From Verrucomicrobiota bacterium (lineage in GTDB: Bacteria > Verrucomicrobiota > Verrucomicrobiia > Chthoniobacterales > SZAS-18): a stretch of DNA of 64,000 nt. The notes under the pieces were generated by a model. The model was not told the DNA's origin and ran no database searches. It saw only the letters and a program-made list of their open reading frames with translations. The position numbers and the translations under genes are program-made. The stretch covers positions 62,001 through 126,000 of the forward strand of contig JANXRG010000112.1 of the NCBI GenBank assembly GCA_025353105.1, given 5' to 3'. Of this stretch, positions 42,730 to 50,728 are shown in pieces. Each line of letters begins with the position of its first letter. Positions within the stretch are counted from its first letter, which is position 1.

Positions 42730-43737
42730 ATGAAACACGGGACCACCAGCGCGCGAGTCGATGGCGGGGACGTGCGGCACACGCTGAAGTCAATTTGGGC
42801 GCGCTACCGCCGACGGCTCTCGCGCTGCCAGAGGCGGCTCACGGAGGACGCGCTGCACGACATGCGGGTGCAAGCGCGGCGGCTGTTGGCCTGCGTGGAA
42901 GTCCTTTCGCCGATCGCGGGTGGACTGGCGGAATCCGCGGCCATTCGAATGTCATTGCGAAAACGGCTTTCCGCCCTCGGTCCTTTGCGCGACGCGCAGG
43001 TGCATCTGCGTGATTTCGTCGGCGCGCTGGAGGCGCATCCGGAAATCAGCCCGCTCCTTCATGTCCTGCGGCGGCGTGAACGCCGGCTCTTGAAATCCGC
43101 GAGGTCGAAACTGGATCGGACCGGGACGCGGAAACTCGGTCGACGCATCGCGCGCTTCTCGGATCGGCTCGCCGCCGGTCTCGCTGACGCGGACGCGCCA
43201 GAGAAATTGCGGGGAGCCTTCGCGCGGACCGTGGCAGAGGCGCTGGCGGGATTGAATCGCGAGAGTCAGGCTGACTTTCGGGACCACGACGCCGTCCACG
43301 CCGTGCGGGTTTCACTGAAACAATTGCGCTACGGCGCGGAATGCCTGCCGACGGAGATGCGCTCCATCCGGCCCGCGGAACTCAAGCGCGTGCGGAAATT
43401 TGTCTCGTGGATGGGTCGGATTCACGACGTTGAGGTGCAGTTGGTGCGAATGGAAAAACTGATTGCAAAAGGTCACCTGCCGCGGATCCGCGCGAAATCG
43501 TACCGCACGGAACTAACCCGCCGCCGCGCCGCATTGATCCGGGAGTGCCTTGCGTTTCTGCGCCGGGGCCGGTCGCCCCGCGTGCTCAAGAGCGCGCCGA
43601 CCGATCCGGTTGTGCGTCGGTCGCGTTCGAAAACAATCGCGGGAAATTCGATCCCGGCGGGGCCGATCGGCGTCGCGAACGTTGGAGGTCGGCCGAACGT
43701 CAAACCTTCGGCGTCGGCTTCTTCGCTTCGGGGATGA
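42730..43737 (+). CDS. CHAD-domain protein
   Basis: 335 aa from ATG 42730. The CHAD domain spans most of the protein: the His-containing first repeat DALHDMRVQARRLLACVEV, the Arg/Lys-rich SLRKRLSALGPLRDAQVHL, and the second repeat DHDAVHAVRVSLKQLRYGAE with the partner pattern RIHDVEVQLVRM. CHAD proteins bind inorganic polyphosphate and often localise to polyphosphate granules. The C-terminal about 50 residues are basic and likely disordered, and overlap the start of the opposite-strand membrane protein gene. Confidence 0.83.
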   Translation: MKHGTTSARVDGGDVRHTLKSIWARYRRRLSRCQRRLTEDALHDMRVQARRLLACVEVLSPIAGGLAESAAIRMSLRKRLSALGPLRDAQVHLRDFVGALEAHPEISPLLHVLRRRERRLLKSARSKLDRTGTRKLGRRIARFSDRLAAGLADADAPEKLRGAFARTVAEALAGLNRESQADFRDHDAVHAVRVSLKQLRYGAECLPTEMRSIRPAELKRVRKFVSWMGRIHDVEVQLVRMEKLIAKGHLPRIRAKSYRTELTRRRAALIRECLAFLRRGRSPRVLKSAPTDPVVRRSRSKTIAGNSIPAGPIGVANVGGRPNVKPSASASSLRG

Positions 43738-44041
43738 GGTCCGAATTCCGGATGGCCATCAACACGCCGAAGATGATCACCAGCAGGGGGATCTCGACGT
43801 CGACTCTCAGGTAGCCGAAGGAGCGCAGGAGGGAGAAGAACGAACAGACGAGCAGAAAGACCGCGGGCAGAAACGTGTCGCGGTTGAATCCGCTGACGGC
43901 GATTAGGTAAATGCCAGCCGCAGCGAGTCCGACGGTCCAGAACATCTCCCACGATGAAAGAATCTGCATCCGCTCGAGCAGCCAGCCGAGTCCGACCACC
44001 ACGATGATAAACGGAACGAGATATTTCTTGGTGGGGCTCAT
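43700..44041 (-). CDS. Small membrane protein
   Basis: 113 aa with four hydrophobic segments: YLVPFIIVVVGLGWLLER, MFWTVGLAAAGIYLIAV, FLPAVFLLVCSFFSLL and PLLVIIFGVLMAI. The pattern resembles LiaF-type/DUF5668 transmembrane domains. Its 3' end overlaps the last 38 bp of the CHAD gene on the opposite strand. It is 11 bp downstream of the CapA-domain stop and shares that strand. Confidence 0.7.
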   Translation of the reverse strand: MSPTKKYLVPFIIVVVGLGWLLERMQILSSWEMFWTVGLAAAGIYLIAVSGFNRDTFLPAVFLLVCSFFSLLRSFGYLRVDVEIPLLVIIFGVLMAIRNSDLIPEAKKPTPKV

Positions 44042-44052
44042 GATGGCGAAAT

Positions 44053-46722
44053 TTAAGGGCGAGATTCCTTGATCGTCAATTCCCTACCGGGCTGCGCGGC
44101 GACCGCCGGGTGTCCGCGCTCATCCAATTGAACCGGGATAATCCGGTATGAAGGTCCGACGCCTCGCAATGAGACGCTGAGTTCAACCAGATTGCCCGCA
44201 TTCCAGTCTGGCAGCGTGGGGCCGCCATCGAATACCAGATTCCCCAGCGAATAAAAGATTAGGCAGCCATGGTAAGAGTCGACTGGCTGCACGCAGTGTG
44301 GATGCGAGCCGATCACGGCATCGACTCCATGGTCGATGAGCCATCTGGCAAATTCGCGCTGTTCCGTCGTCGTGCGCCGGGAGTTTTCGTCGCCCCAATG
44401 GACTAGGCAGAAAACCGCCGCCGAGTCGGAGCGCGCCTGCGAAATTGCCTCGGCGAAGGGCTGACGAAAAGTCGCGCTCGCGATGAATCCGGTGGTTGCA
44501 TCCGGACCGGGCGAGGAGACCGCATCGATTGCGAGGACGGCGACCTTTGCTCCATTGGGGAGGCGGAACTTCCGGGCGGCCGCCGCTTCGTCGCTCGTGG
44601 ATCCGGCTCCAAGGGGCGTGACGCCGGCAGCGGTGAGATGCGCCTGCGTGTCGGCCAGCGCCCGCGGGCCAAAGTCGAGTGTGTGGTTGTTCGCCAGGCT
44701 GACCGCGGCAAAACCGGCTTGCCGCAGTGCGGCTGCCGCCTCCGGGGGAGCCCGGAAGATGTAACGGGCATCGGCTTTCGGCGCGCCCGCGTCAGAAATT
44801 ACACACTCCAGATTCGCCATCGCCAAATCCGCTCCCGTCAGGACGCCTGCAATCTCCGCGAGCGGATTGTCGCCGGCTCGAATGGAATCTCCGACGCTTC
44901 AGGCCAGCATCACGTCGCCACCGAAAAGGACCGTCGCGGTGTCCCGCGCCGCCGGTGCGCGATACAAATCGAAATCCTCGCGCGTCCGCGTCCGGAGCAA
45001 TTGTCCGAGCGAAATCAATTCCGGTTTTCCCTCGAGCTGGTGCGCGAGGAGGTCATTCGCGTCCAGCACGCCCAGCGGCGGACGGTCCTCGATGACCGCG
45101 GCGACATGCGTCCCAAGGTGAATAATCACGCCGCTCTCAATCATGGCTTCGTCGATCCGGGCCTGCCCAAGCCGGACCTTCGTGCCAAGCAGATCGAGCC
45201 GGGCGCGCAAGCCCTTGGGATCGGACCACGGAATGCGATGACCCGTGCGTCGCAGTGCGGCGATGACAAAGTTGGCGCAGTCTGCGCCCTGCCTGGTTTC
45301 AGGCCCCGTGTCCGCCTCAATTCGCAGCTCGCCGCCGCCCAGCAGGTAGGGCAGTCCGAACGACTCCAGCACCGCGGACTGGAAGCCGGTTCCCTTTCCC
45401 CGGCGAATTTCGATTTCCTCCGTTTCCCGAATGGTCGCGCCGGTGCGCACTCGTGCCTTTACCCGCACACTTCCAAGCCCTGTGCTCCGATCGAAAAACG
45501 GACGCAGCGACGCAAGATCAAGCGACGGACCCGCGGACCGCAGCAGTGTCTCGGTCCATCTGGGGCGTGGCGGCGCGTCGGCGGCGAAGCCCAGAAACTC
45601 GGCGTTCATCGCGACCAGGTTGCAGCTTGGATACGTGGGCGTGAGAACGATCCATTCCACCTGGCCGGCCTCCGCGTACCAGGGCTTCGCCATCAGCTCG
45701 AGCGTGGCGCTCTCCGATTCCTGGATGCGCCACACGCCATCGGTTGAAGGCTCGCGGTCCTTCAATCCGAGCGCATAGTGCGGCGCCTCGGCCACCCAGC
45801 CGTCGAGTATCTGCTTGAATCGCTCGGGCTGGTGGCGGACGAGAAGTCGGTTGCGCTGCGCGAGCAACAACGACCGCAGCGTCTCAGGCGCCTGCGTCAC
45901 GTCGTAGGCCGGCACCTCCCGGCTCGAGGCGCGGAGTCGCTTGGCCAGCTCGGAGCGATCGTTCGCTATGATGGCGTGCGGTTCGAATTGCACCGACGCG
46001 GTCGGCAGCGACAACGCCGCGCGCAGGGCGAGCTCGAGCAGCCGGTGCGCTTCGGCATCGTCCTTCAAGAATGGCCGCGAGATGGAAATCGTGACCGCGC
46101 GGAGGTTCCGGCGCTCGACGGTCCACCGCCAGATGCGATCGAACGCAGCTTGCTGGCGTTCGGTCGGCAGGCCGGCGAACGAATCCAGGTCGATCGAGAC
46201 CACCAGTGGCGGCCCATCGCGCCAGGTCCGGCGCAACGCTTCAAAGTCCGAAACCCGATAACGTTCGCGAAATGATCCCGTGGCGCGCGGTGCGGCCTCC
46301 AGGTGGCCGTCCAGGAATTCGCGGGCCTCCCGCTCGCGTAACTTCTTCTCATTCGACGGCAATCGCTCGCCAGGAACCCAAATCACATTCGCAAAGGGCG
46401 CCGGCATAAGCGGCTCGATCCAATCGAAACACTGGATGGTTCCGTCGCGCCGCCAAGCATCGAGCACGGCCTGGCGATCCACGATGGACGCGACGCGCCG
46501 GATTCTCTCGCGGATGAAATCGGAATCGAAAATGCCTGACGCATCCGAATGCGCATCGAACAAAATCAGAGTGTGCGGCTCCTCAAGGTCGAGTCGCTGG
46601 GCGAGCCAGTGGAAGGACCCGGCGTGATTGTCCTCGATGTAGATGGGCAGCGTGAGATCGGCGGCTTGTGCCCTCAACGCGATGCACGCGCTGACCAGGC
46701 ACAACCAGCGCGACGCGTTCAT
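44053..46722 (-). pseudogene. UPF0489 - NlpC/P60 - CapA three-domain exported protein with in-frame TGA
   Basis: One 890-codon frame from ATG 46722. A signal peptide ends near residue 20 (ACIALRAQAA). Residues about 25-290 match UPF0489 (IEDNHAGSFHWLAQRL, ILFDAHSDASG, VVSIDLDSFAGL). Residues about 445-560 are NlpC/P60-like: LPYLLGGGELR, the nucleophile in GADCANFVIAAL (about 482), GTHVAAVIED. From about 600 comes a CapA/poly-gamma-glutamate metallophosphatase domain: FGGDVMLA, MANLECVISDA, SLANNHTLDFG, GSHPHCVQPVD. TGA is codon 608 (44899-44901), directly after FGGDVMLA where Arg or Gly is usual (CGA to TGA fits). The gene overlaps the preceding glycan-binding gene (ATGA). Confidence 0.8.
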
Positions 46723-48017
46723 TTTCGACTCACCTTTGGCTTCTTCGTCAACTTGGCGAGGAGACGGACCCGCGAGACGCAGGTGTCGCGAAATTGCGTC
46801 CCGCGGTGAACTTCTGTGATGACCATTTTGACGGTCCGGACTAGCTTGTCGTAGCCACGAATCGCGATGGGATAAAGATCACGAAATTTCTCGTCCGGAA
46901 TTGACGTTCGAAAGGTGCGTTCCCCATTCAAGGTGATCTCAAATTCTGCAACGCGGTTATTGGCTCCCCAGTATTCGGGGTGCTTGGGGTCGTCATAACC
47001 CGGCCCGACGAGAATTGCAGCGAGTGGGCGCGGGTGCCTCACCTTGATCTCCAGGCTCTCGCCGATCCCATCGCCGTCAACTCCCTCCGCCCATGGCTTG
47101 GGATATCCGTGTTTTACGTTTTCCGCCGAGTACTCGCCGGGTTTCTCCGAGTGGAGTTCTGAACTGGCGCTAATATCGAAGTCGGCATGCCGCAGGTAAT
47201 ACTTACCTTCTTCGGCGACGTAGCGTACCTGTCCCGCCTGGGGCGAGTCCGGGTTCGGGCCCGGGTAGTGCTCGTACCCCGGCGCCACCCTGATTTTGAT
47301 GTCATCGTCCAGGGTCGGCCGCAACGCGTTGAATTGCCATACCCAGCGGCGCGGGCCGTCGGACGTGAATCGTCCCTTTGGCTTCTCTACGACGACGCGC
47401 TCGGGGATTGCGCTCCGAACATTGATGACGACGGTTCCCAGGCCGATCGGCTCTTTCCAACCGGCGGCTGGCGAAAGTGCGTACAGAAACTTCGCCGGCC
47501 CGGACTTAGTGTCATCAGAAAAGCTCTCGCCAGCTACGAAGTGTTCGACGCGATATCGGATCACGACCTCTCGCACCTGTTCCTTGCGAAACGGTATTGT
47601 CGAGCGCCTCCAATATCGGATGGGCTTGGCTACAGCGTCCACGAATGGATCCATTCGTTCCGTTGGGGCTGGTTTTCCCCACGCTTCAGAGGCGAGCGCA
47701 TTGCCATCTACTTCAATGACATATTGCTGAGGCTCGCGCAGTCGCCCCTGAACATCCACCGGGAAAAAGAAAGGCTGGTCAACGGCAGGTCCCGTGTTCC
47801 TCATCCGGTATCGCACCTCCACTTCGGCGAAATCCTGATGCAAATCGATTGTAAGCTTTTCCTCTTCGATCGTCACATCGGACTTGGCGGCCGATTCTCC
47901 GGGCGCAGCGCTGCCCGTCCCTGCAACGCCCGTCACCCATGGCCCGCCATTCGCCAGCGACGACGATGCGCAGGCGACGCTGAGACCAAGCACCCGAACG
48001 AGGGATTGGAGGTTCAT
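46719..48017 (-). CDS. Exported protein with NADase-type glycan-binding domain (tandem copy 2)
   Basis: 432 aa from ATG 48017, which gives a signal peptide (MNLQSLVRVLGLSVACASSSLA). The N-terminal part is DUF4424-like: ITIEEEKLTIDLHQ, RYRMRNTGPAVDQPFFFPVD. The C-terminal about 140 residues are the F5/8-type domain first described for NAD-glycohydrolase translocation: LAAILVGPGYDDP, WGANNRVAEFEITLNGERTF, KFRDLYPIAIRGYDK. Sequence is about half identical by eye to the gene at 48063. Its stop overlaps the UPF0489-NlpC-CapA start. Likely binds surface glycans in the periplasm or outside. Confidence 0.72.
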   Translation of the reverse strand: MNLQSLVRVLGLSVACASSSLANGGPWVTGVAGTGSAAPGESAAKSDVTIEEEKLTIDLHQDFAEVEVRYRMRNTGPAVDQPFFFPVDVQGRLREPQQYVIEVDGNALASEAWGKPAPTERMDPFVDAVAKPIRYWRRSTIPFRKEQVREVVIRYRVEHFVAGESFSDDTKSGPAKFLYALSPAAGWKEPIGLGTVVINVRSAIPERVVVEKPKGRFTSDGPRRWVWQFNALRPTLDDDIKIRVAPGYEHYPGPNPDSPQAGQVRYVAEEGKYYLRHADFDISASSELHSEKPGEYSAENVKHGYPKPWAEGVDGDGIGESLEIKVRHPRPLAAILVGPGYDDPKHPEYWGANNRVAEFEITLNGERTFRTSIPDEKFRDLYPIAIRGYDKLVRTVKMVITEVHRGTQFRDTCVSRVRLLAKLTKKPKVSRK

Positions 48018-48062
48018 GGCAGGAGCGTCCCCGCAAATGGCGGTCAACTTGAAATGACTGGT

Positions 48063-49367
48063 CTATCTGGCGCCTTGGACCTTTGGCTTCTTGGCGAGTT
48101 TTGCGCGCAGCGCGAGATAAGAAATGAAGGTATGGCGATCTTCACTCCCCCGGTGAACTCCCGTAATGACTAATTTCAGCGTCTCCACCGGCTTGTTGTA
48201 GCCGCGGATCGGGATGGGGTAGGCGCGCTGAAATTTCTCATTCGGAATGCTGACCCGAAAACTATGTTCGCCGTTCAGCGTGATTTCCACCTCGGCCACG
48301 CGATTGTGGTTCATCCACTGATCCGGGAAATCCGGAGCCCGGAAGCCTGGCATGATCAGAATCGCGGCGAGGGGAAGCGCTCGATTGGAGCGGAGTTTGA
48401 GCGATTCGCCTATCCCGTCCCCCTCAACTCCCGTGCCCCAAGTCGACTTGGGGCCGAAGTATCGGCGCAAGTTCTCGACGGAATACTCGTCCATCTTGTC
48501 GGAATCGAGCGTTGAAGATGCTGAAACCGAATAGTCGGTATGCTCGAGATAGTACTTCGACCCAGCGAGCACATAAATCAGTGCGGTCGAAAGAAAATCT
48601 TCGGATCGTGCGGGACGATAGTAGCTGTCGAATGAAGGCTCGATCACGATGCGCAAGTCGTCCTCCAGAGTCGGTCGGAGATTTGAAAACTGCCACTTCA
48701 GGCGCCCGGGACCGTCCGGCTTGAAGCGGCCATTTGGTTTCTCGACATAGACATCCTCCGGGATTGCGGTGTGCACTTGGATGACGATGGTTCTCTTCCG
48801 GATGGGCTCCTTCCAATGGAAGGCTGGGGACAGAGCGTAGGCGAAGGTGGTTTTGCTTGAATGATCGTCTTCCGACACACTCACCCCCGAGGCCGCGTGC
48901 TTCGATCGGTACCTTATCCGCACGTCGCGCGATTGTCCTCGCGCGAAGGTAATGGTTGAGCGCTTCCAGTTTCGGGCGGGCTTGTTCGGAGACATGTCAT
49001 CTTGGTCGGTGGCAGGAGTCGGTTTGGCGGTTCCCGACGGTTGCCACTCGATGGCTTGGCCATCGACCTCGATTCGGTAATCCTCGAGGTCCTCCTGCCA
49101 GCCCTCCACGGGGAAAAAGAATGGCTGCTCCACCGCCGGGCCGGTATTGCGCATCCGGTATTGAACGTCAACGATTGCGAATTCCTGGTGCAGGTCGATG
49201 TCGAGACGCTCCTCGTCGATGGTCACATCGGTCTTCGCCGCGCGTTCCCCAGTGGCGCCGTTGCCGGTCCCCGCAACGCCGAATTCCCACGGGCCGCCAT
49301 TTGCCAGCAACACGCCATTGGAACCAACGAAGAATATCGCGGCAATAATGCGACTGAGCGGCAGCAC
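48063..49367 (-). CDS. Exported protein with NADase-type glycan-binding domain (tandem copy 1)
   Basis: 434 aa starting at a GTG (MLPLSRIIAAIFFVGSNGVLL signal region). Same layout as the next gene on this strand: TIDEERLDIDLHQEFAI, QYRMRNTGPAVEQPFFFPVEG, a middle region with the conserved SIxHPWKEPI-type turn (AFHWKEPIRKRTIVIQVH), and the C-terminal F5/8-like domain LAAILIMPGF, MNHNRVAEVEITLNGEHSF, NEKFQRAYPIPIRGYNK. A 45-bp gap separates the two paralogues. It starts the 49.4-44.0 kb envelope operon. Confidence 0.72.
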   Translation of the reverse strand: MLPLSRIIAAIFFVGSNGVLLANGGPWEFGVAGTGNGATGERAAKTDVTIDEERLDIDLHQEFAIVDVQYRMRNTGPAVEQPFFFPVEGWQEDLEDYRIEVDGQAIEWQPSGTAKPTPATDQDDMSPNKPARNWKRSTITFARGQSRDVRIRYRSKHAASGVSVSEDDHSSKTTFAYALSPAFHWKEPIRKRTIVIQVHTAIPEDVYVEKPNGRFKPDGPGRLKWQFSNLRPTLEDDLRIVIEPSFDSYYRPARSEDFLSTALIYVLAGSKYYLEHTDYSVSASSTLDSDKMDEYSVENLRRYFGPKSTWGTGVEGDGIGESLKLRSNRALPLAAILIMPGFRAPDFPDQWMNHNRVAEVEITLNGEHSFRVSIPNEKFQRAYPIPIRGYNKPVETLKLVITGVHRGSEDRHTFISYLALRAKLAKKPKVQGAR

Positions 49368-49459: not shown

Positions 49460-50728
49460 TTACCCACCCGGGCCCGCAGGGGGCGGATCCTCGTTCGCGG
49501 CGGCCGGCGTTGTTGGAGTTACCCGGGGCTTGGAGGCCGCTCGACGCGCCGGGGGCGTGGTGGTCGCGGCAGGCGTGGGCTGCGGCCTCGCGCGCCGCGG
49601 TCGCTCGGGCATCTCGGCGACTGGCGCGGGCGACGCACTTGGTCTGACCTCAGCCGCCGCGGGCGTGGACGCGGAAATTGGAGCAGGCGTCGGAGCCGGT
49701 GTCGGTTCGGGAGAAAGCGAGGACGCCGGCTCCGTGACCGCTGAAATAAATCCGTTATTCGTCACGATCGCCTGACCGCCCGCGCCCCGCGCGAAGGCGA
49801 GAAACCGGCCCACCAGCGCATTTTCCGGTGCCGCCGCGGTATACAGGTACAGCCGGCGCGACATCGGGTATTCCCCGTTGCGAATCGTCGCGGCGGTCGG
49901 ACGGGTAAGTCGCGGCTGCGGCTTTCCATCCGAGATCGCAACGACGCGATTGTTCCCCGCAAACGTCTGCGCGACGACCCCGATGCCCCGCGGATCGGCG
50001 GCGACCGCGTCGGAGAGCGAGCGATTGTCGGGCTGACGCGGCGCGTCCGGCGGCAGATCTTCGTCCTCGAGAATGGCGGCCTGGAAGGTCGCGTGCGTTC
50101 CGGATTTCGCGTCGCGGGCGTAGAGGTGAATGGGCCCACTGCCCCCGACCTCCTGCCACGACGTCACGCGGCGGAGATAGATGTCCTTCAATTGCTGGCG
50201 CGTGAGCGACTCGATCGGATTGATGGCATTGACAATCACCGCGACGGCATCGAGCGCGAGGACATGCTCGCACGCCGGCGAGGTCAGGTCGCCCAGACGG
50301 GAGAACTGTCGGACTTCAGCGGGGCGAATGCGGCGCGAGCTCATTGTGAGATCGGCGAAACCCTGGTCGAGCGTGGAGAGCCCGCTTTCGGGATCGGAAA
50401 TCTCGACGTAGACGCTCGCCCGCTTTCCGGCCGGCGAAGGGCGGCCCACAAAGTTGTAAGAAGTTCCACCGGAAGACGGCACACGGCTCACGTCCTTCCA
50501 GCCTTCTGCCTGTAGGAATGGCAGCAACAGTTCGCCCATGAGGCTCGCGCCAATCGTGTCCGAGCCATGCACCCGCAACACGGTGTCGCGCGGGCCCGAA
50601 ACATCTGCGGGGTCCGCCGCGTCCGCGAGGGAAGCTGCGGCGAGGAGCACACCGGCCAACGCGACGGCAAGGGCCGCGCGGGAAAGACGGGCAAGTCGCG
50701 CGGCAGGTCGCAGGGAGGCCGGACGCAT
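49460..50728 (-). CDS. PstS-like phosphate-family substrate-binding protein with Pro-rich tail
   Basis: 422 aa with a signal peptide (LARLSRAALAVALAGVLLAAASLADA). The binding-protein core is clear: VLRVHGSDTIGASLMGELLLPF, LALDAVAVIVNAINPIESL, QLKDIYLRRVTSWQEVGG, SGTHATFQA, and GAGGQAIVTNNGFI. The pattern SDTIGASL and PIESLTRQQLKDIY is typical of the PstS superfamily. Residues about 335-422 are Pro/Ala/Thr-rich and likely disordered or cell-wall/membrane spanning. No pst permease or ATPase genes are nearby, so a role other than transport is possible. Confidence 0.83.
   Translation of the reverse strand: MRPASLRPAARLARLSRAALAVALAGVLLAAASLADAADPADVSGPRDTVLRVHGSDTIGASLMGELLLPFLQAEGWKDVSRVPSSGGTSYNFVGRPSPAGKRASVYVEISDPESGLSTLDQGFADLTMSSRRIRPAEVRQFSRLGDLTSPACEHVLALDAVAVIVNAINPIESLTRQQLKDIYLRRVTSWQEVGGSGPIHLYARDAKSGTHATFQAAILEDEDLPPDAPRQPDNRSLSDAVAADPRGIGVVAQTFAGNNRVVAISDGKPQPRLTRPTAATIRNGEYPMSRRLYLYTAAAPENALVGRFLAFARGAGGQAIVTNNGFISAVTEPASSLSPEPTPAPTPAPISASTPAAAEVRPSASPAPVAEMPERPRRARPQPTPAATTTPPARRAASKPRVTPTTPAAANEDPPPAGPGG

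Follow-up and report, generated by a model that had tools for sequence, protein, structure and literature searches.

The peptide arginase OspR, of the family UPF0489 (PF12640), converts peptidyl arginine to ornithine and urea with a mass shift of −42.02 Da, and the motifs described for its family are EEH(N/H)EAF, DXHXD, and LDIDLDYFSC (PMC10028609). MslH, a protein of the CapA fold, is described as inverting the C-terminal residue of a peptide; its metal site surrounds the C-terminal carboxyl group of the substrate, and its active-site residues are D11, E44, N87, H88, D91, H259, H261, and H295 (PMC10406935). Here we describe an enzyme gene, P3, in which domains resembling both proteins flank an NlpC/P60-type domain, together with the partner gene, NAD, that accompanies it. 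The pair was encountered in a 64,000-nucleotide stretch of contig JANXRG010000112.1 from a Verrucomicrobiota bacterium (assembly GCA_025353105.1); this whole stretch is referred to below as the window, and coordinates given without a locus or genome label are its own. On its minus strand lie a distal partner copy (NAD1, 48063–49367, 434 amino acids), a proximal partner copy (NAD2, 46719–48047, 442 amino acids), and P3, whose frame runs from 46722 to 44053. A sequence-only reading had proposed three genes on one strand, two of them paralogous, with translation coupled by an ATGA overlap; this arrangement is borne out, the paralogues being 53–54% identical and the NAD2 stop and P3 start sharing the bases at 46719–46722, which supports coupling of the genes.

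The first domain of P3 shares with OspR (8BRP) its fold, six metal ligands, and similar motifs. OspR, however, is a stand-alone maturase of a cluster for ribosomally synthesized and post-translationally modified peptides (RiPPs), acting on a precursor peptide, whereas the P3 domain is fused, apparently exported, paired with a protein of ~440 amino acids, and under the Pfam cut-off. The last domain shares the fold of MslH and CapA (8GQ9, 8ITG; PF09587) and seven of the eight active-site residues; unlike MslH, it has glycine at the position of H261, sits behind an NlpC/P60 domain, and is missing in some lineages, and no lasso-peptide context was seen at P3. The middle domain resembles the NlpC/P60 endopeptidases RipA and RipB in the order of its cysteine and histidine and in its PY..G and DC.N motifs, but lies between two peptide-tailoring domains. 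The two halves of NAD have the folds of lpg2210 (DUF4424, 4G2A) and of the Streptococcus NADase translocation domain (7JI1). Neither is known to us to be paired with a P3-like enzyme or to carry an arginine tail, though no search aimed at this was made.

A looser parallel is Braun's lipoprotein, Lpp, whose C-terminal lysine is linked to peptidoglycan. The likeness is one of analogy only: NAD, too, appears to be an exported protein, and its C-terminal residue would bear a free side-chain amine if its arginine were converted to ornithine. No kinship is claimed, and the attaching enzyme is of another type, Lpp being attached by L,D-transpeptidases rather than NlpC/P60 enzymes in the accounts consulted (PMC8263019, PMC10653827).

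Distribution of the P3–NAD pair

P3 occurs in seven of the 387 genomes sampled from the phylum, that of the window included, and also in a genome of the same genus, G001; one or two NAD genes lie directly upstream of P3 in the six phylum relatives and in G001. When the scan was widened to 84,980 species genomes, 57 P3 loci were recovered, 50 titled Verrucomicrobiota or subgroups thereof and the remainder Riflebacteria, Anaeromyxobacter, Spirochaetes (three), Deltaproteobacteria, and Bacillota. With L027 and L073 truncated at contig ends, pairing was testable in 55 loci, and NAD is immediately upstream on the same strand in 49 of them. It lies farther upstream in L038 (1.5 kb), L044 (~6.8 kb), and L065 (~8.6 kb; the latter two on the same strand), and on another contig in L026. 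No NAD is nearby in the two remaining testable loci, L071 and L072, whose proteins are partial, comprising the arginase half and the middle plus NlpC part, respectively. The genome of L071 (G421) holds distant NAD relatives only, and no NAD was found in those of L072 and L073; in the genome of L027, NAD stops ~200 bases short of a contig end, which looks as though assembly had split the pair.

The converse association is seen in the phylum sample, where strong NAD matches (>270 bits) are restricted to the same seven genomes as P3 and no match exceeds 89 bits in the remaining 380; weaker matches include 12 divergent proteins with both regions from a single genus (g27), none with the C-terminal tail described below. 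The partner likewise accompanies a full P3 in each of the three Spirochaetota genomes that encode one. Stop and start could overlap by 4 bases in 22 of 50 loci. P3–NAD is a conserved module of apparently exported proteins across several phyla, and a chance neighborhood is rejected by a gene order recurring far beyond chance. Unrelated neighbors in other genomes, or failed profile searches, were the outcomes that the sequence-only reading had named as counting against it; what was found instead is a pair standing side by side in 49 of the 55 testable loci.

No description of the P3 fusion or of the P3–NAD pair was found in the open-access literature, in keeping with the earlier suggestion of an undescribed system; the main text of a study of peptide arginases in cryptic RiPP pathways (PMC12703449) does not contain the terms "Verrucomicrobi", "NlpC", or "signal peptide". 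The pair would appear to be new as a system, with parts that resemble known families and a mechanism that is offered as a proposal.

In the P3 tree, the five non-verrucomicrobial rows require three label changes among verrucomicrobial rows, and in all five of these loci NAD is upstream on the same strand. Transfer of the pair between phyla is the simplest reading of this topology, although four of the five rows are contigs of metagenome-assembled genomes and depend on correct binning. A prophage or viral origin found no support, there being no relatives among viral contigs, and a search of five proteins with PADLOC gave no match to anti-phage defense systems (E ≤ 0.01).

Domain structure of P3

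Relatives were used to assign the first two domains of P3 because the window protein alone falls under the Pfam cut-offs for both UPF0489 and NlpC/P60. The alignment comprised 48 relatives and the window protein, drawn from 50 complete open reading frames (ORFs) after removal of L046 and L052, which carry frameshifts; the structural model was an AlphaFold prediction for the L019 homolog, with a mean predicted local distance difference test score (pLDDT) of 91.7. The domain assignments of the sequence-only reading accordingly stand in two ways: the NADase-type and CapA domains are recovered directly by Pfam, while UPF0489 and NlpC/P60 are recovered through relatives and fail on the window protein itself.

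Of the Pfam families matched by the first domain, UPF0489 is the commonest, with 25 of 40 members at E ≤ 1 and a best value of 3e-4; the gathering score of 27 is not reached, the scores listed for members being 11.6–19.3 bits, and the window domain gives no match. A profile of this domain (40 of the 49 rows) searched against the whole PDB returned OspR as top match (E 0.005), and residues 32–309 of the L019 model superpose on OspR with Z 17.0 and 3.7 Å over 211 residues. Each of the six arginase metal ligands, distributed over three motifs, is invariant in 49 of 49 sequences, window included. In the window the domain spans 45763–46659 on the minus strand (residues ~22–320), with ligands H33, D56, H58, D60, D178, and D180.

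The CapA domain is recognized by profile and by fold, with PGA_cap matched in 45 of 49 members, a sequence-profile match to MslH at 2e-33, and a superposition of L019 residues 590–874 on MslH with Z 32.3, 2.3 Å over 267 residues, and 27% identity; the next structure that is not MslH, YmdB, scores Z 19.8. The seven retained MslH residues (D11, E44, N87, H88, D91, H259, and H295) are conserved in 46 of 47 sequences, 45 of 45 (five residues), and 44 of 44, gapped rows set aside. The domain is absent from the P3 of L050, L062, and L074. These patterns bear on a reading that accepts the gene pair as real but takes its arginase- and MslH-like domains for inactive scaffolding that holds the NlpC/P60 enzyme. 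Low sequence similarity to the characterized enzymes and the lineages without CapA fit such a role, but the invariance of all six arginase ligands and the retention of seven of eight MslH active-site residues argue against it, and we regard it as very improbable.

Between the two lies the NlpC/P60-type domain, whose cysteine is conserved in 49 of 49 sequences and histidine in 48 of 49, in the expected order. NLPC_P60 is the commonest Pfam match here (14 of 40 members at E ≤ 1, best 2e-5). In a profile search of the PDB, RipB is the top match, though weak (E 0.15), with RipA at 0.7–1.4 and unrelated proteins scoring alike; NlpC/P60 is not among the 50 structure matches listed for the whole P3 model, all of which are taken by the CapA domain. 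The window domain (44959–45396, minus strand; residues 443–588, with Cys482 and His539) scores 11.8 bits against a cut-off of 23 (E 0.25).

Hydrophobic N-terminal segments in 42 of 49 P3 and 45 of 48 NAD proteins, against 1 and 2 for the internal controls, suggest that both proteins are exported. The sequence-only reading had likewise taken the unit to be exported, which these segments make probable.

Partial forms of the enzyme also occur. A Spirochaetales gene in L071 (5767–9702) encodes the arginase half alone (367 amino acids), followed by a probable lipoprotein of 919 amino acids. In two Myxococcota genomes (L188 5395–8327 and L189 1865–4647), a relative of the P3 middle and NlpC region, with neither arginase nor CapA domain, lies directly behind a gene that by eye resembles a cobalamin-binding radical S-adenosylmethionine enzyme; this is perhaps another peptide-tailoring pair.

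The C-terminal arginine of NAD

NAD is a two-domain protein, with an N-terminal DUF4424 region (45 of 48 members at E ≤ 0.1) followed by a NADase-type discoidin (F5/8C) domain (48 of 48). Both window paralogues match NADase_transloc (Pfam, 5e-13 and 9e-19), known in NCBIfam as "NADase-type glycan-binding"; their DUF4424 region had gone unmentioned in the sequence-only reading. A model of NAD2 (pLDDT 86) resembles lpg2210 and the Streptococcus translocation domain in its two parts, and its final residues are of low confidence.

An unexpected feature of the family lies at the C-terminus. The C-termini were compared across unique family ORFs scoring >150 bits from the window and from L012–L075, L106–L125, and L161 (n = 73), three of which (L024, L033, and L070) were excluded as front pieces of frameshifted genes. 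Arginine is the terminal residue in 67 of the remaining 70, following the pattern P-x5-R in 64 and P-x4-R in two. The tail of NAD1, read directly from the sequence, is P-x5-R (48066–48086, minus strand, with the terminal arginine codon at 48066–48068). An origin of the arginine as a by-product of gene overlap was rejected, because the tail persists in non-overlapping copies, in upstream tandem copies lying more than 1 kb away from P3, and in five that are more remote.

Control proteins, namely NADase-type discoidin or DUF4424 matches on best-match loci in genomes that yielded no arginase-type P3, end in arginine in 9 of 65 cases and show the tail in none; genes neighboring the pair end in arginine in 29 of 207. 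Two Spirochaetota genomes place a partner beside an NlpC-type protein without an arginase domain: in G499 this is a two-domain NAD ending IILK, and in G629 a discoidin protein whose front is cut by a contig end. Neither has the tail. The arginine tail thus largely tracks the arginase-bearing P3. A finer correspondence, between CapA-less P3 (L050, L062, and L074) and a penultimate glycine in the partner, was considered and dropped, as L107 has the ending Pro-Gly-Arg although the P3 of its genome includes CapA.

Five tandem NAD paralogues lie ~8.6 kb upstream of P3 in Akkermansia glycaniphila (G420:C18:5567–12635; L114, L116, L121, L124, and L191). Three have the tail and two have lost it, possibly through subfunctionalization.

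Proposed activity and alternative readings

Because domains of peptide-arginase and MslH type accompany a protein with a C-terminal arginine, the position at which MslH acts, the simplest substrate for P3 is the tail of its partner. We therefore propose, with about even confidence, that P3 modifies this tail by conversion of arginine to ornithine, epimerization of the C-terminal residue, and cutting or transfer of an amide. NAD and P3 would be made from one mRNA, as the gene overlap suggests, and then exported by means of their N-terminal hydrophobic segments. The arginase-type domain would hydrolyze the guanidino group of the terminal arginine to yield ornithine and urea; the MslH-like domain, where present, would invert the alpha carbon of the C-terminal residue; and the NlpC/P60 cysteine enzyme would cut or transfer an amide bond, either in this tail or in adjacent peptidoglycan. 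The purpose may be the fixing or maturing of a surface protein.

Several observations weigh against this proposal. OspR and MslH, as characterized in the accounts consulted, act on natural-product precursor peptides, OspR on internal arginines; in sequence the P3 arginase domain resembles OspR only weakly (best E 0.005), and the MslH metal ligand H261 is glycine in 43 of 45 P3. The controls are imperfect, since matches to both domains are found in only 14 of the 65 (three of these end in arginine, none with the tail). Some partners depart from the pattern: NAD2 of the window ends Ser-Arg-Lys; the partner in G643 (L161 303–3484), beside a P3 without CapA, continues for seven residues after the conserved arginine; the tail is missing from two of the five A. 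glycaniphila copies, one of which still ends in arginine; and a partner fragment in G1055, where no P3 was found, ends Gly-Arg without the proline. Weaker NAD relatives at eight loci in P3-related genomes (L115, L117–L120, L122, L123, and L125), below the 150-bit cut, also lack it. In the genome of L071 the stand-alone arginase half coexists with tail-less, distant relatives of NAD, of which at least L125 has two domains, and the arginase part there must therefore act otherwise. By the same logic, NlpC/P60 domains beside tail-less partners imply that the job of this domain is not tail-dependent everywhere.

Such cases are the natural ground of the main rival reading, in which the substrate of P3 lies elsewhere (peptidoglycan stem peptides, foreign peptides, or a gamma-glutamyl polymer) and the tail serves P3 only as a docking or retention signal. 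NlpC/P60 enzymes usually cleave peptidoglycan, and both the arginase-less NlpC-type versions, which retain an adjacent tail-less discoidin partner, and the arginase half of L071, with no tailed partner, are consistent with a substrate other than the tail. A CapA homolog has also been described as part of a poly-gamma-glutamate cluster (PMC9266682). Set against this, what the tail conserves is the very residue consumed by peptide arginases, located where MslH acts, and the tail is missing in both arginase-less pairs found; we consider a substrate elsewhere somewhat unlikely. The partner's own tail remains our best candidate substrate.

If the tail is the substrate, a more specific extension can be drawn by analogy with Lpp. 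P3 might be an anchoring machine in one polypeptide, in which arginine becomes ornithine (or D-ornithine) and the NlpC/P60 domain, as a transferase, joins the side-chain amine to gamma-D-Glu of peptidoglycan. This extension is quite doubtful. Were it true, the linkage of Braun's lipoprotein would have an ornithine-based counterpart that gene transfer has carried across phyla, and the lysine-ended NAD2 of the window could bypass the arginase step.

A RiPP pathway was also considered. Besides NAD, no recurrent gene was found among ORFs of at least 90 amino acids at the 57 loci, and none recurred among 1573 ORFs of 20–89 amino acids within 1.5 kb of the core, where the largest families are present in five of the 57 loci and divergent precursors could escape detection. 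The carrier of the tail is itself a two-domain protein of ~440 amino acids. We do not file the system under RiPPs because no recurrent short precursor gene was found, a divergent precursor being conceivable.

Genomic context

No wider conserved operon is apparent: besides NAD, no family occurs in more than six of the 57 loci, and the largest flanking families are found in six, five, or four. One family of five loci, directly downstream, resembles fructose-bisphosphatase by eye. In the window, the module is followed on the same strand by a small LiaF-type membrane protein (43700–44041) and preceded by a phosphate-binding-protein-like gene (PBP_like_2, 49460–50728); neither type was seen among the recurring flank families of the 57 loci. 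TonB-dependent-receptor-like genes, identified by eye, lie just upstream of the pair in L013 (2942–5062) and L015 (4077–6137).

These flanks bear on the interpretation offered in the sequence-only reading, namely a glycan-binding, envelope-remodeling unit with NAD as its sugar-targeting component and P3 as the enzyme that trims capsule or peptidoglycan. Glycan recognition is suggested only by the NCBIfam name of the discoidin part. Also in keeping with the wider reading are the exported appearance of both proteins and, directly downstream of P3 in A. glycaniphila (L065 8662–10071), a gene that by eye resembles a murein-peptide ligase of Mpl type. This type of cell-wall recycling enzyme was seen downstream of P3 at that locus only, and no capsule or cell-wall family was recognized by eye among the families recurring in at least four of the 57 loci. 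No action on glycans is known to us for domains of OspR or MslH type. Taking arginase-like and CapA domains to indicate capsule or envelope remodeling overlooks the peptide arginase and peptide epimerase that these same families contain, and we judge a glycan-directed unit unlikely.

The window copy

The window copy of P3 carries the stop codon that the sequence-only reading had pointed out, an in-frame TGA at 44899–44901 within the CapA/MslH domain; the frame is otherwise open to the TAA at 44053. The first open frame (44899–46722, minus strand; 607 amino acids) holds, in order, a hydrophobic N-terminus, the peptide-arginase-type domain, a beta-rich middle, NlpC/P60, and the first CapA/MslH motif, and the remainder of the CapA/MslH-like domain follows at 44053–44898 (PGA_cap, Pfam 2e-56). 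The product would be a 607-residue arginase–NlpC protein with a domain content like that of the natural forms lacking CapA. Reassignment of TGA is disfavored, since NAD2 itself terminates with TGA and P3 copies free of internal stops exist in relatives.

Because the TGA falls inside CapA and the nearer partner, NAD2, ends in lysine rather than in arginine as nearly all its relatives do, the window copy may be degraded, or may work as an arginase–NlpC enzyme only; the two features may reflect decay at an early stage, a genuine variant, or an error of assembly. Compared with a same-genus relative, differences by codon position are 0.44, 0.38, and 0.60 behind the stop and 0.38, 0.31, and 0.59 before it; the third position is the most divergent behind the stop too, and at 41% identity the stop is not datable. 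Frameshifts in P3 or NAD occur in further relatives, the same-genus genome among them (L018, identical with L046; L024; L033; L052; and L070), and in these assembly error and real decay are not distinguishable.

Implications

Peptide arginases and MslH-type epimerases have so far been characterized from natural-product clusters. The fusion of both domain kinds in one apparently exported enzyme, accompanied by an arginine-tailed partner, points to a post-translational pathway at the C-termini of bacterial proteins, with named carriers among the Verrucomicrobiota that include Rubritalea marina and A. glycaniphila. For proteins now labeled UPF0489, DUF4424, or "NADase-type glycan-binding", the proposal supplies a testable substrate, the C-terminal arginine of NAD, and a testable mass shift of −42.02 Da that its conversion to ornithine would produce.

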